Below are positions 8,050 to 14,675 of a stretch of DNA of 38,191 nucleotides, piece by piece. The stretch comes from an uncultured SAR86 cluster bacterium. Its GTDB lineage: Bacteria > Pseudomonadota > Gammaproteobacteria > Magnimaribacterales > AG-339-G14. The translations under genes and the position numbers were made by a program. The stretch is from positions 1 through 38,191 of the forward strand of contig CABZRA010000007.1 of the NCBI GenBank assembly GCA_902527995.1, read 5' to 3'. The notes beneath the pieces are model-generated. The model was not told the origin of the DNA, did not search any database, and saw nothing but the letters and a program-made list of their open reading frames with translations. The first letter of the stretch is position 1. Every line of letters begins with the position of its first letter.

Positions 8050-8556
8050 ATGATATTAAAAAATATTAACCAAATTTGCCAATCTATACTAATATTTTTT
8101 CCAACCTTGCTAGGAAAAGTCAGTACTTGGTTTCTAGTACTAATGATCTTTTTAACTGCTTACGTAGTTATTGCAAGATATGTTTTCGGAGTAGGCATCT
8201 TAAGCCTGCAAGAACTGATTATTTATTCTCACGGAATTACCTTTCTTATATGTGCTGCATACGCTATGAAAGAGGATCAACATGTAAGAGTAGATATTTT
8301 GTACAGAAGATTCTCTGAAAGAAGAAAAAAATTAATTAATCTTATTGGAAACGTAATTTTTCTTCAGCCAATGTTATGGGTTATTTTATTTGTTTCTTTT
8401 GAATACGTTTCTTTCTCATGGGAAATAAAAGAGATCTCTGCAGAGCCTGGAGGGCTCCCATTTGTTTATCTTTATAAAACAGTTATTGTTATTTCTACTA
8501 TTCTTTTATTATTACAAAGTTTTGCAAACATACTTTCCTTCTTTATAAATGATTGA
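8050..8556 (+). CDS. TRAP transporter small permease (DctQ/TakQ type)
   Basis: Small membrane subunit of a tripartite ATP-independent periplasmic transporter. It has 168 residues with four predicted membrane helices (about 20-45, 55-75, 95-118, 140-163). Family marks are LQELIIYSHGITFLICAAYA, the cytoplasmic EDQHVRVDILYRR, and SWEIKEISAEPGGLPFVYLYK. This wording is typical of the subgroup that works with TakP-like 2-oxo-acid binding proteins. Its last eight bases overlap the start of the large permease (ATGATTGA). The binding protein is not adjacent; a TakP-like one lies at 13575-14675 on the other strand. Confidence 0.92.
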   Translation: MILKNINQICQSILIFFPTLLGKVSTWFLVLMIFLTAYVVIARYVFGVGILSLQELIIYSHGITFLICAAYAMKEDQHVRVDILYRRFSERRKKLINLIGNVIFLQPMLWVILFVSFEYVSFSWEIKEISAEPGGLPFVYLYKTVIVISTILLLLQSFANILSFFIND

Positions 8557-9907
8557 ATTTTTACCTCTGCTGTTATTTTTTGTAATTTGTCTCAGTCTTC
8601 TCATGGGCTTTCCAGTTGCATTTACTCTTGGGGGAGTTTCAATTCTTTTTGCTCTTTTTATTAGTATTTTTGGACTATTTGACCTTACCCTTCTAGAGAC
8701 AATCCCTAACAGACTTTACGGAATAATGACGAACGCAACATTAGTAGCTGTTCCCCTATTCATTTTCATGGGGGTAATTTTAGAAAAATCCAAAGTCGCA
8801 GAACTATTGTTAAATTCAATGTCAAAACTATTCAGTAAATACAAAAGTGGATTAGGCATATCGATTCTGTTTGTTGGGGCGCTTCTTGCGGCTAGCACTG
8901 GAATAGTTGGGGCTACTGTTATTGCCATGGGATTAATATCTTTGCCTGCAATGTTGCAAAGAGGCTACTCAGAAAAAATATCAACCGGATTAATTGCTGC
9001 AACTGGCACTCTTGGTCAAATTATCCCTCCTTCAATTGCTTTAGTTATACTGGGAGACGTATTAGCTACAGCATACCAACAATCTCAACTTAAAATTGGT
9101 AATTATGTTGCCAAGTCTCTTTCTGTCGGCGATTTATTTATGGCTGCGATTGTGCCTGGGTTAATTTTGGTGATTATTTATGGTTTATATTTTATTTTTA
9201 ATTTAAGGAAGGAAGATATTATTTCAACTAATGATTCGAGAGAAGAAAGCTTTATTAAACTCATTTCAACACTAGCACCTCCTTTCTTTCTTATTTTTGC
9301 CGTTTTAGGATCAATAATTTTCGGAGTTGCCTCGCCTACGGAAGCTGCAGGGATTGGAGCTCTTGGAGCTATATTTATTGCTTTACTCCATAAAAAGTTA
9401 AACCTAAAAATCCTTTCTGAAACCACAAAACAGAGTGCTTTTATCTCATCAATGGTTTTTTTAATTCTAATAGGTGCATCTATTTTTTCTCTAGTTTTTA
9501 GAGGTTTAGGAGGAGAAGAACTCATTACCGATATTTTTAACAAAATTCCTGGTGGATTATTTGGTTCTATGGTCTTAGTTATGCTGTTAGTTTTTATTCT
9601 AGGATTTATTTTAGATTTCATTGAAATAACTTTTATAGTTGTGCCAATAGTTGGGCCGATTTTGATGGCAATGGGTGCTGACCCATTGTGGTTAGGTGTT
9701 ATGTTGGCCATAAATTTACAAACGTCTTTTTTAACGCCGCCATTTGGATTCGCACTTTTCTATCTCAGAAGTGTCACTCCAGAACAAATTAAAACTGAAA
9801 CGATGTATCAAGGAGTTCTTCCATTTATCGTTATTCAAATTTTTGTTTTATGCTTAGTTGCATATTTTCCTTTCTTAGCTACTTACTTGCCAAAAATTAT
9901 TTTTTAG
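8549..9907 (+). CDS. TRAP transporter large permease (DctM/TakM type)
   Basis: Large membrane subunit that carries out sodium-coupled solute import with the small permease. It has 452 residues and a dozen or so hydrophobic segments. Typical DctM motifs are LLMGFPVAFTLGG at the start, VPLFIFMGVILEKS, AASTGIVGATVIAMGLISLPAML, GTLGQIIPPSIALVILGDVLA, SPTEAAGIGALGA, and FLTPPFGFALFYLR near the end. The long loop around residues 160-200 (ATAYQQSQLKIGNY...SVGDLF) marks the TakM-like / mannitol-chloroaromatic-annotated subgroup. Start ATG 8549 overlaps the small permease by eight bases. The partner binding protein is probably the TakP-like lipoprotein at 13575-14675. Confidence 0.94.
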   Translation: MIEFLPLLLFFVICLSLLMGFPVAFTLGGVSILFALFISIFGLFDLTLLETIPNRLYGIMTNATLVAVPLFIFMGVILEKSKVAELLLNSMSKLFSKYKSGLGISILFVGALLAASTGIVGATVIAMGLISLPAMLQRGYSEKISTGLIAATGTLGQIIPPSIALVILGDVLATAYQQSQLKIGNYVAKSLSVGDLFMAAIVPGLILVIIYGLYFIFNLRKEDIISTNDSREESFIKLISTLAPPFFLIFAVLGSIIFGVASPTEAAGIGALGAIFIALLHKKLNLKILSETTKQSAFISSMVFLILIGASIFSLVFRGLGGEELITDIFNKIPGGLFGSMVLVMLLVFILGFILDFIEITFIVVPIVGPILMAMGADPLWLGVMLAINLQTSFLTPPFGFALFYLRSVTPEQIKTETMYQGVLPFIVIQIFVLCLVAYFPFLATYLPKIIF

Positions 9908-11063: not shown

Positions 11064-12275
11064 ATGAAGAAAGAATGGACGAAAATTAGAGCTAAAGTTA
11101 AAAGCTTTATCGAAGAGGAAATATATCCTGTAGAAAAAAAATTAGCTGAAAATTCAGATGAATCTAAAGAAGTAATGAAAAGAATTACTCAGATGGCAAA
11201 AGATGAAAATATATGGGCTTTAGGACATCCTAAAGATATAGGTGGAGGCGGTATGCCTTTTATGGACTATGTTTATATTAATGAAGTTATTGGAAGATCG
11301 CCCTATGCAAATGTTGGTTTAGGTACGGTATCTCTTCAAGACTCAATAATGTTGCGAGAATTTGCCTCAGATCACTGGAGAGAAAAGTATCTACAACCTC
11401 TAGTTAAAGGAGAAATATTTCCAAGTTTTGGAATGACTGAACCAGAAGTTGCTAGTTCTGATCCTACTCAACTTCAAACTACTGCTATTTTGGATAAAGG
11501 GATGTGGAAGATCAATGGAAGGAAATGGTTCACAACAGGAGCTTCTCGTGCTGCTTATACTACAGTTATGTGTAAGACAGAATTAGACGCTTCAAATCAT
11601 GGAGCCTTTAGCATGATAATTGTTCCTACTGATAATCCAGGATATAAAATTATTAGAGAAACTCCTGTACTTGGCATAAACGGTGGTCATTACGAAGTTG
11701 AATATGACAATGTCGAGGTGCCTGAAGAAAACTTGTTGGGTCCTAGAGGCCAAGGATTTCTTATAGCTCAAAAAAGGTTGGGGCCTGGGAGGATTTTCCA
11801 TTGTATGAGATGGCTAGGCCAAGCTCAAAGGGCTTTTGATTTAATGTGTTCAAGAATGCATGAAAGAGAGACCTTTGGAACGTCTCTGACTCAAAAACAA
11901 CTTCTGCAGAAATTTGTTTTTGATAGTGCTTGTGAAATTCAATCATCAAGGCAATTAACTCTTGATGCCGCTAAAAGGATTGATCAAGGGGATGATGCGA
12001 GAATTGAAATTGGACTAATTAAAGTAATTGGCGCGCAGATGCTTCATAACGTAATTGATAGAGCAATTCAGGTTCATGGAGCAAAAGGGCTTACCGATGA
12101 CACTCCTCTCAGCCTAATGTACAGGCATGCTAGAGAGGCTAGAATTTACGATGGTCCTGATGAGGTTCACATTCAATCTGTTGCAAAAAGAATTCTCAAA
12201 AATTACGAAAATAATGGTGCTGGTTGGGATTTCGGAGAGCGCGACGCTTCCTTACAAAACCAACTAAATGGATAA
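11064..12275 (+). CDS. Acyl-CoA dehydrogenase, ACAD10/11 (LvaC-like) type
   Basis: FAD-dependent acyl-CoA dehydrogenase fold, 403 residues. It shows FGMTEPEVASSDPTQLQTTA (122-141) for FAD binding, GRKWFTTGASRA (152-163), and the C-terminal VHGAKGLTDDTPLSLMYR followed by RIYDGPDEVH (360-369). In this subgroup the usual catalytic Glu position is Asp (Asp363) inside the DGPDEVH motif. That motif is typical of relatives of mammalian ACAD10/ACAD11 and Pseudomonas LvaC. The kinase-like gene downstream overlaps its end by eight bases (ATGGATAA), the same pairing that is fused in ACAD10/11. Probable role: with the kinase, conversion of 4-phospho-acyl-CoA to 3-hydroxyacyl-CoA. The role is inferred from the family and context. 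Confidence 0.92.
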   Translation: MKKEWTKIRAKVKSFIEEEIYPVEKKLAENSDESKEVMKRITQMAKDENIWALGHPKDIGGGGMPFMDYVYINEVIGRSPYANVGLGTVSLQDSIMLREFASDHWREKYLQPLVKGEIFPSFGMTEPEVASSDPTQLQTTAILDKGMWKINGRKWFTTGASRAAYTTVMCKTELDASNHGAFSMIIVPTDNPGYKIIRETPVLGINGGHYEVEYDNVEVPEENLLGPRGQGFLIAQKRLGPGRIFHCMRWLGQAQRAFDLMCSRMHERETFGTSLTQKQLLQKFVFDSACEIQSSRQLTLDAAKRIDQGDDARIEIGLIKVIGAQMLHNVIDRAIQVHGAKGLTDDTPLSLMYRHAREARIYDGPDEVHIQSVAKRILKNYENNGAGWDFGERDASLQNQLNG

Positions 12276-13227
12276 ACTTAAAAAATTTACTGAGAATCTT
12301 CTAAACTCTGAAATTAAAGATTTTCATCAACTCTCTGGTGGAGCTTCAGCAGAAACATACAAGCTGATCCTGACTAATAAAAAGAAATATATTTTAAGAA
12401 GGACCCCAGATTCTTCCGAATCTAAGTTAGCAATCTCAAAAAAATTAGAAGCTAAAATCCAAAGGATTGTAAAACACAATAACGTTCCCGTTCCAGAAAT
12501 TTTCTATGAATTTGACGAAACAAGTGGATTTGGGAGCGGGTATGTTATGGAGTTTATTAGCGGAGAAACAATTCCAAGAAAAATACTAAGAGACGATATA
12601 TTTAAAAAAATTAGGACATCAATTACTTTTAGAATGGGAGAAATTCTAGCGAAGATCCATCAAAGCGATATCAGCAACCTCGGAGAACTAAAAGAAATGT
12701 CTTTTGACAAGTCTTTAAAAGAACTTTATAAAGTTTATTCATCATTCAAAGAGCCTCAACCAGTTTTTGAATATGCATTCAATTTTTTAGCAAAAAAAAA
12801 TCTAAAAAATCCAAATAACGTTCTGGTTCATGGAGATTATAGGCTAGGCAATTTTATTATTTCTGAAAATGCATTAAATTCAGTGATTGATTGGGAACTT
12901 TCTCATATAGGAAGCCCCTTAGAAGATTTAAGTTGGTTGTGTGTTAAATCATGGAGATTTGGAAAAAATAGAAAAAGAGTAGCTGGTCTTGGAAATCTTG
13001 ATGACCTGATAAAAGGCTACGAATCTAATTCTTCAATAAAAATTGACCTAAACGAATTAGATACTTGGCAAATTTATGGCTCTTTACGATGGGGTGTAAT
13101 TTGTATGATTCAAACCTTTTACCATTTAAATAACGACCTAAATTCACTTGAAAAAGCAGCAATTGGAAGAAGAGTTTCAGAAACGGAATTTGATTTGATG
13201 AACATGATAAAAAATAAAAAGTTTTGA
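12268..13227 (+). CDS. APH-fold kinase, probable 4-hydroxyacyl-CoA kinase (LvaA-like)
   Basis: Aminoglycoside-phosphotransferase-fold protein, 319 residues. It shows the nucleotide loop LSGGASAETY (22-31), LRRTP following the beta strand, the catalytic loop VLVHGDYRLGNFI (Asp190, Asn195), and the metal-binding VIDWELSHIGSPLEDLSWL (Asp208). These match the ACAD10/11 kinase domain and LvaA, which phosphorylates the 4-hydroxyl of 4-hydroxyvaleryl-CoA. Antibiotic modification is unlikely because it sits between an ACAD10/11-type dehydrogenase (8-base overlap) and a LvaB-like protein (TTGA overlap). Substrate chain length cannot be read from the sequence. Confidence 0.88.
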   Translation: MDKLKKFTENLLNSEIKDFHQLSGGASAETYKLILTNKKKYILRRTPDSSESKLAISKKLEAKIQRIVKHNNVPVPEIFYEFDETSGFGSGYVMEFISGETIPRKILRDDIFKKIRTSITFRMGEILAKIHQSDISNLGELKEMSFDKSLKELYKVYSSFKEPQPVFEYAFNFLAKKNLKNPNNVLVHGDYRLGNFIISENALNSVIDWELSHIGSPLEDLSWLCVKSWRFGKNRKRVAGLGNLDDLIKGYESNSSIKIDLNELDTWQIYGSLRWGVICMIQTFYHLNNDLNSLEKAAIGRRVSETEFDLMNMIKNKKF

Positions 13228-13574
13228 AAGTTTTTTTTGATAGACCATCTAAAGAAGAACTGATGGAAGTTCTACATTATTATTTTTTGAATGAGATTGA
13301 TTACAAGAATCTGCAAGAAATAAGTATTTTTGAACTTCGGATTGCATTAAATATTTTTAAAATCATAAAAAGAGAAATTAGAAATGAAAAAGAATTAATT
13401 AAAAAGCTAGAAGATCTCAGTCTAAAACTTTTTGAGCAAAAAATATCTTCAAAAAATGAACTAACAAAAATGATTAAAAATCAAAACTTTGACCCAGCCA
13501 CAATGGAAGATTTTTTACTTCGACTTGCTAAGGAAAAATTACTTATCGATAACCCTTCATACTTAGAAGATTAG
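13224..13574 (+). CDS. DUF6285/LvaB-like small partner of the kinase
   Basis: Protein of 116 residues, mostly helical and charged. It resembles the small family that follows APH-type acyl kinases, of which LvaB of the Pseudomonas levulinate pathway is an example; LvaB is needed with LvaA for 4-hydroxyvaleryl-CoA phosphorylation. Matching features are the opening RPSKEELMEVLHYY, the middle ELRIALNIFKIIKREI, and the end LAKEKLLIDNPSYLED. The start is TTG at 13224, which overlaps the kinase stop as TTGA; starting at the later ATG would remove the conserved opening. The gene ends exactly at the stop of the convergent TRAP binding protein. Family assignment is from memory of motif patterns and should be confirmed by profile search. 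Confidence 0.75.
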   Translation: MKVFFDRPSKEELMEVLHYYFLNEIDYKNLQEISIFELRIALNIFKIIKREIRNEKELIKKLEDLSLKLFEQKISSKNELTKMIKNQNFDPATMEDFLLRLAKEKLLIDNPSYLED

Positions 13575-14675
13575 CTAACGCAATTCGTAAATAGCTTGCT
13601 CAGAAATCTTATGATAGTTTGAAACACCTGCTTTAAAATCTAAGATAGATTTATAAATTTCTTTTGCAAATTCGTCTTCCGAAACAAACTCTTCAAGAAC
13701 CTCATTAGAAATTTTTTCTAGTTCAAAAAGAACTTCGTCAGGAAATTTTTTTAGAATCACATTGTGATCTTCTATCAATGATACCAACGCTTGATTATTT
13801 CTAGCTGTGTATTCATCCATCATATTTTGATTTACGGCTCTCGCGGCTGTTCTTGCTATCGCCTTCAAATCATCTGGAAGTTCATCAAAAGCTTCTTTAT
13901 TAAATATAAATTCTGTCATAGCACCAGGTTCTTGCCACCCAGGATAATAGTAATATTTAGCTACTTGATGAAATCCAAAAGTTAAGTCGTTATAAGGTCC
14001 TATCCATTCTGCTGCATCTATTACTCCTGTTTGAAGATTTGTAAAAATTTCGCTTCCAGGCATCAACACTGCCTCACCGCCTGCTCTAGTGAAAACCTCT
14101 CCAGCTAAACCAGGCATTCTAATTCTTATTCCTTTCAAATCCTCAGTAGTATTTATTTCTTTGTTAAACCATCCTCCCATTTGAACTCCAGTGTTTCCTC
14201 CAGCCATTGGTATTAAATTGAAAGGTTCATAAGCTTTCTCCCATAGTTCTAATCCCCCACCAAAGTGAAGCCACGCATTTCGTTCTTGAGCATTTAAGCC
14301 AAAAGGGAGGGTTGTAAAAAATTGTGCTGCAGGTAGTTTACCTATCCAATAATATGATGCACCATGACCCATCTCAACTGTTCCTCTTGATACAGTATCG
14401 AAAACTTCTAATGCAGGAATGAGCTCGCCATTTCCATATACCTTTATTTTCAGTCTACCATCACTCATCTCATCTACGAGTTGAGCAAAGTTTTCAGGAC
14501 CAAGTCCGACTCCGGGGTAATTTTTCGGCCAAGTTGTTACCAATTTCCAGGAAAAATTCTTTTTTTCTACCGCCTCTCCATTCTGATTTGAGCTTTCAGT
14601 ACAAGAAATAAGAAAAAAACATAAAAATATATAAGTTAAATTTTTTCTAGATTTGCAAAACTTAAAACTAACCAT
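13575..14675 (-). CDS. TRAP transporter substrate-binding lipoprotein (TakP-like, 2-oxo acids)
   Basis: Periplasmic solute receptor, 366 residues. The N-terminus KSRKNLTYIFLCFFLISC carries a lipobox with Cys25, so it is probably lipid-anchored rather than free. The body follows the TakP subgroup: WKLVTTWPKNYPG, ELIPALEVFDTVSRGTVEMGHG, YYWIGK, GNTGVQMGGWFNKEI, IRIRMPGLAGEVF, AAEWIGPYND, YYYYPGWQEPG. Gln165, Arg186, Glu223 and Trp224 sit where TakP binds the sodium ion and substrate carboxylate (from recollection of that structure). The start ATG (14675) lies 40 bases inside the end of uvrD, and no better start preserves the signal. The partner membrane subunits are at 8050-9907 on the opposite strand. 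Confidence 0.92.
   Translation of the reverse strand: MVSFKFCKSRKNLTYIFLCFFLISCTESSNQNGEAVEKKNFSWKLVTTWPKNYPGVGLGPENFAQLVDEMSDGRLKIKVYGNGELIPALEVFDTVSRGTVEMGHGASYYWIGKLPAAQFFTTLPFGLNAQERNAWLHFGGGLELWEKAYEPFNLIPMAGGNTGVQMGGWFNKEINTTEDLKGIRIRMPGLAGEVFTRAGGEAVLMPGSEIFTNLQTGVIDAAEWIGPYNDLTFGFHQVAKYYYYPGWQEPGAMTEFIFNKEAFDELPDDLKAIARTAARAVNQNMMDEYTARNNQALVSLIEDHNVILKKFPDEVLFELEKISNEVLEEFVSEDEFAKEIYKSILDFKAGVSNYHKISEQAIYELR

Follow-up and report, generated by a model that had tools for sequence, protein, structure and literature searches.

The locus consists of three genes on the forward strand between positions 11064 and 13574 of the window, which is the entire 38,191-nucleotide stretch analysed here from an uncultured SAR86 cluster bacterium (assembly of 777 kb, 71% complete). 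The first gene (11064-12275) encodes a 403-residue acyl-CoA dehydrogenase (ACAD) of the ACAD10/11/LvaC type, assigned by its Pfam ACAD domains and, by tree, to a branch with the motif FHCMRW; the second (12268-13227) a 319-residue APH-fold kinase of the LvaA type (PF01636), which by tree belongs to a clade partnered by DUF6285 proteins; and the third (13224-13574), starting with TTG, a 116-residue LvaB-like DUF6285 protein (PF19802). The reading frames lie as a first-pass annotation of the sequence had placed them, with the kinase ATG at 12268 preceding the ACAD stop codon (12273-12275) for an overlap of 8 bases (12268-12275) and a 4-base start/stop overlap, TTGA, joining the kinase and DUF6285 genes (13224-13227). 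The nearest ACADs on named contigs are those of SAR86 single-cell genomes (85-86% identical).

The same gene order recurs in SAR86 relatives and, in a comparison with four same-genus genomes, dN is well below dS in all three genes, so that the trio is no chance arrangement. With dN of about 0.04-0.05 for the ACAD, 0.15-0.19 for the kinase and 0.27-0.31 for the DUF6285 gene, all three are under purifying selection, the dN/dS ratios being rough since dS (0.84-2.5) is saturated; the ratio of about 0.03 for the ACAD reflects strong conservation in a streamlined genome. The co-occurrence survey covered 101 genomes of the order, in which the DUF6285 gene is found in 49 and the ACAD and the kinase in 51 each; all three are present in 48 genomes and none in 49, and two families of the order are without any trace of the trio. 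The four mixed cases (G020, G025, G026 and G039) are drafts, the genes being located at contig ends in the first three. Even where the kinase-DUF6285 pair is unlinked from the ACAD (G040, G055 and G073) both are retained, and the three genes are thus gained and lost together.

The surroundings of the trio differ, as it follows TRAP and M19 genes in the genus of the window, prfB-lysS in three further genera of this family and a ketoacyl synthase gene in a second family; because of these three contexts the conserved unit is the trio alone. That the trio and the flanking TRAP transporter form one unit for uptake and breakdown of a single hydroxy acid is quite improbable: the arrangement is kept in five of five same-genus genomes examined at the locus, but in other genera and in the second family the trio comes after lysS or a ketoacyl synthase gene and without TRAP genes, and DctP (13575-14675), downstream of the trio, is encoded on the opposite strand. 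Not being kept outside the genus, the transporter is disfavoured as part of the system. It appears split, with DctQM (8050-9907) upstream and the M19 peptidase and the trio between the two halves, in the genus of the window only. An SMP-30-type lactonase, a thiolase-like protein and a short-chain dehydrogenase/reductase (SDR) are encoded within about 6 kb of the trio in some relatives (L037), and in the second SAR86 family (L044:5975-15838) the trio adjoins genes for an AMP ligase, SDRs and a flavin monooxygenase besides the ketoacyl synthase; since conservation is lacking, both sets of neighbours hint only weakly at the substrate.

Among solved structures ACAD11 is the best relative of the window ACAD. 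In mouse ACAD11, R626, H634 and R637 hold the 4-phosphate and D753 is the base, and altering these residues abolishes elimination (PMC12440821). Upon alignment to PDB 8v3u, R238, H246 and R249 of the window ACAD, which form the motif R238...H246-C-M-R249 (11775-11810), correspond to the three phosphate-holding residues and D363 corresponds to D753, where ordinary ACADs have Glu. D363, the catalytic Asp (PMC12440821; PMC11342911), opens the DGPDEVH motif to which the first-pass annotation had drawn attention and which is read at residues 363-369 (12150-12170). All four marker residues of phosphate-eliminating ACADs, that is the R..HCMR pocket and catalytic Asp of LvaABC-type systems, are therefore present, and the product of 11064-12275 is predicted to be a 4-phosphohydroxyacyl-CoA phosphate-eliminating flavoenzyme. 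Given the size of both protein families and the abundance of ACADs in SAR86, an ordinary beta-oxidation ACAD might happen to stand beside an unrelated small-molecule kinase; this is very improbable in view of the Asp that replaces the Glu of conventional acyl-CoA dehydrogenases, the HCMR phosphate pocket and the co-retention of the genes even if unlinked.

By overall identity the window ACAD is distant from the characterized enzymes (33.5% to LvaC and 37.6% to mouse ACAD11) and closer to a Myxococcales protein (69%). In a tree of 102 ACADs, built by quick search with SH-aLRT support and without bootstrap, it falls in a branch of 20 rows marked mainly by FHCMRW (SH-aLRT 100), separate from an HHCMR branch of 22 rows with mouse ACAD11 (SH-aLRT 100) and from a THCMRW branch of eight rows with LvaC and Thermus (SH-aLRT 95). 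Judged by these alignments and branches, the enzyme is LvaC/ACAD11-like in its active site, yet, as LvaC falls in the THCMRW branch, no LvaC orthologue but a member of a branch of its own. No activity has been reported in the literature searched for any ACAD of the FHCMRW branch or its kinase. A second SAR86 ACAD (L221, G000:C2:67601-68788) and its relatives (L202, L209-L215) are 42-44% identical to the window ACAD; L221 reads HCMN where phosphate-eliminating ACADs read HCMR and, with the last phosphate-binding Arg lost, its substrate is probably a different one. SAR86 genomes, those of trio-less families included, also encode a separate HHCMR ACAD11-type dehydrogenase (L203-L208, L216-L219), so that the order may possess two 4-hydroxyacyl routes in parallel.

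The kinase scores 105.9 bits against PF01636 and its catalytic residues, which the first-pass annotation had described as intact, are read in the catalytic loop HGDYRLGN (12829-12852), with D190 and N195 invariant in the kinase alignment, and in IDWEL, which according to the same alignment contains the metal-binding D208 (12889-12891). In a tree of 103 kinases, again a quick search with SH-aLRT support and without bootstrap, 81 form one clade on a long stem that includes LvaA and the window kinase (SH-aLRT 100). Nearly all members of this clade adjoin or are fused to DUF6285, and the three exceptions have short or cut loci, or the partner further away. Neither do antibiotic or choline kinases come close: the kinase reaches 27.8 bits for NCBIfam APH_3p (cut-off 205) and 29.3 bits for thiK (cut-off 299), and is hence no member of the APH(3') or thiamine kinases, and in a profile comparison of its family with solved structures 3dxp (1e-32) and ACAD11 (4e-30) rank first, antibiotic and choline kinases far lower. 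Mouse ACAD11 and PDB 3dxp are located outside the 81-kinase clade, as is a further kinase encoded in the same genome as the window (L228, G000:C1:64991-65797), 28% identical, which groups with 3dxp near the ACAD11 kinase and for which no ACAD partner was found in the 71%-complete assembly. The two-component kinase HpeHI, an ATP-grasp/swivel dikinase of another fold, was ruled out as an analogue, and the CoA-binding arginines R86 and R176 of the ACAD11 kinase were set aside as comparison sites since their residue numbering could not be mapped with certainty.

The assignment of the small protein, proposed to be DUF6285/LvaB-like, was borne out by profile search, in which it scores 36.6 bits against PF19802 with a gathering cut-off of 28.1. 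DUF6285 is likewise the family of the protein annotated as LvaB in the lva operon of a P. aeruginosa plasmid (85 bits), and in the account of P. putida given in PMC6692424 (citing Rand et al., 2017) LvaB binds LvaA in a pulldown and lvaA, lvaB and lvaC are each required for growth on levulinate. Natural kinase-DUF6285 fusions occur in the Actinomycetota Rhodococcus, Aldersonia, Nocardia and Actinomadura, in other Pseudomonadota and in marine Pseudomonadales; AlphaFold2 models one such fusion as a single confident unit (pLDDT 88, pTM 0.87) and the 116-residue protein itself as all-helical with moderate confidence (pLDDT 76, pTM 0.47). A fold search with the small protein by itself found nothing meaningful (best E 2.3), a profile search against the PDB likewise yielded no match, and a literature search for DUF6285 retrieved no papers. 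A histidine-phosphatase gene directly follows the DUF6285 gene in Stutzerimonas and Thermus clusters (L085:5930-7047; L082:5947-6947); replacement of LvaB by a histidine phosphatase has been suggested for P. citronellolis (PMC6692424), and in these two clusters the phosphatase is no LvaB substitute as both genes are present.

Outside SAR86, the association of DUF6285 with this type of ACAD was assessed at FHCMRW-type loci without DUF6285 at the locus by searching the rest of the genome. DUF6285 is encoded elsewhere in 16 of 16 searchable genomes that have an ACAD 55-69% identical to that of the window and no kinase-only partner beside it, against a background of 46 of 397 Pseudomonadota at large, figures for which the grouping was drawn after the search and the statistics ignore shared ancestry. 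Most of these DUF6285 copies are linked or fused to a kinase. Two FHCMRW loci with a solo kinase alongside (L136 and L149) have DUF6285 in their genomes too, and for seven other loci of the search, with an ACAD less than 54% identical or lacking the HCMR motif (e.g. L119), five genomes are without DUF6285. The natural fusions, the pairing of nearly all members of the kinase clade with DUF6285 and the genome-wide prediction that held lead us to infer that the 116-residue protein is a kinase subunit.

The closest described system is the lva operon of P. putida, compared here via its P. aeruginosa plasmid copy (L080), which encodes a regulator, A, B, C, a reductase, an acyl-CoA synthetase, a DUF485 protein and a symporter, the B protein being annotated as 4-hydroxypentanoyl-CoA kinase subunit LvaB. 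The same three protein families are shared with the DUF6285 partner in both, the kinases belong to one clade and the active-site residues of the ACADs are identical. On the other hand, the window ACAD and kinase are only 33% and 29% identical to LvaC and LvaA, the ACAD is on another branch (FHCMRW versus THCMRW), and the trio is without lvaD, lvaE, lvaF, lvaG or lvaR nearby, so that the LvaD reductase, the LvaE synthetase and the LvaR regulator linked in the levulinate operon are missing beside it, as the first-pass annotation had stated for the reductase and the ligase. It was also right that the order differs, A-B-C in Pseudomonas and C-A-B in the window; this same C-A-B order of the same families exists on pTT27 of Thermus thermophilus HB8 (TTH_RS10075-10065), although with an adjacent SDR, AMP ligase and histidine phosphatase and with a THCMRW ACAD of the LvaC branch. 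Mammalian ACAD10/ACAD11 have the R..HCMR pocket and catalytic Asp in common with the window ACAD (38% identity to mouse ACAD11), but ACAD11 reads HHCMR-T for FHCMR-W. The claim that they fuse the first two parts of the trio holds insofar as the ACAD11 kinase is fused to an ACAD; the kinase is, however, a different one, outside the DUF6285 clade, and by the trees neither the window ACAD nor its kinase belongs to the ACAD11 lineage. The nearest ACADs, up to 69% identical outside SAR86, are those of FHCMRW systems in Actinomycetota, Myxococcota and marine Pseudomonadales, none of which was found characterized; their kinases belong to the clade of the window kinase and are often one protein with DUF6285, often unlinked from the ACAD.

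Cumulatively, the LvaCAB-like reading is supported, with no contrary result from the DUF6285 profile or the kinase tree, and the trio probably provides a two-enzyme route that feeds 4-hydroxy carboxylic acids into beta-oxidation, the chemistry being assigned by homology. An unlinked acyl-CoA synthetase would form the 4-hydroxyacyl-CoA, upon which the LvaA-type kinase and its DUF6285/LvaB subunit would, as judged from the family, phosphorylate the 4-hydroxyl using ATP. R238, H246 and R249 of the FAD-bound ACAD would grip the phosphate while D363 removes the C2 proton, and, as shown or proposed for ACAD10/11, FAD would take up and then return the hydride so that phosphate is eliminated with no net redox change. 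In ACAD10/11 the kinase requires the CoA ester, the ACAD requires redox-active FAD but works without an electron acceptor, and 2-trans-enoyl-CoA is formed along with some 3-hydroxyacyl-CoA (PMC12440821; PMC11342911). The view of the first-pass annotation that LvaC yields the 3-hydroxy form thus needs amendment: the first product is the enoyl-CoA, with some of the 3-hydroxy form seen for the mammalian enzymes. The 2-enoyl-CoA would enter beta-oxidation, for which SAR86 has many enzymes and is reported to carry the genes in many copies (PMC11582366).

With neither a ligase nor a reductase or transporter linked consistently to the trio, the 4-position presumed for the hydroxyl is deduced from the ACAD active site. 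Levulinate as dedicated substrate is argued against by the best candidates in the 71%-complete genome, which reach 33% identity to LvaD and 32% to LvaE, with no orthologue of either in the window; generic acyl-CoA synthetases remain candidates for activation. Our guess is that medium-chain 4-hydroxy acids, from peroxidized lipids or gamma-lactones, are the natural substrate. A related reading with chemistry as in the best explanation, namely repair or detoxification of lipid-peroxidation 4-hydroxy acids in sunlit water instead of carbon supply, appears rather doubtful: mammalian ACAD10/11 handle 4-hydroxynonenal-derived acids and have been proposed to serve as a low-flux clearing route (PMC11342911), which would fit the strong conservation of the ACAD in a streamlined genome, but the two families without the trio indicate that such a function is not generally needed in the habitat, and no stress genes are linked.

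Many kinases with a DUF6285 partner are without an adjacent HCMR ACAD, so that their clade may act on several substrates. A Cupriavidus plasmid (L084:4908-6316) carries a kinase-DUF6285 pair with indolepyruvate ferredoxin oxidoreductase and thiolase genes and without an ACAD, hinting at other substrates for the clade. The 25-hydroxy steroid kinase (25-HSK) of Sterolibacterium denitrificans has the same APH fold and phosphorylates an alcohol to enable phosphate elimination, and its structure (9fsg) ranks first in the structural search with the kinase-DUF6285 fusion model. The trio could hence perform such chemistry on another substrate, such as a hydroxylated sterol side-chain or a branched hydroxyacyl-CoA, and wide steroid side-chain degradation reported for SAR86 (PMC11582366) is in keeping with a sterol-derived substrate; still, this is unlikely, as by profile the kinase family is far nearer to 3dxp and ACAD11 than to 25-HSK (1.8e-13) and the ACAD residues placing a 4-phosphate are all present.

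The trio is a real, conserved operon of the known kinase-plus-ACAD kind with an ACAD from a distinct branch, and seems to be a compact version of known bacterial and mammalian chemistry in an abundant surface-ocean bacterium, in which a 4-phosphate is added and then eliminated to make a fatty acid accessible to normal beta-oxidation. We tentatively propose, with more doubt than confidence, that, next to LvaABC and ACAD10/11, FHCMRW ACADs with DUF6285 kinases constitute a third lineage in which hydroxyacyl-CoA breakdown depends on phosphorylation, one that acts on a substrate class of its own and extends through SAR86, other marine Pseudomonadales and Actinomycetota. The fusions, the pairing and the prediction that held make the role of LvaB directly testable. 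As for the organism, retention of the trio as a set by two families of an order with streamlined genomes suggests that SAR86 regularly encounters 4-hydroxy or lactone-derived acids, be it as food or as damage.
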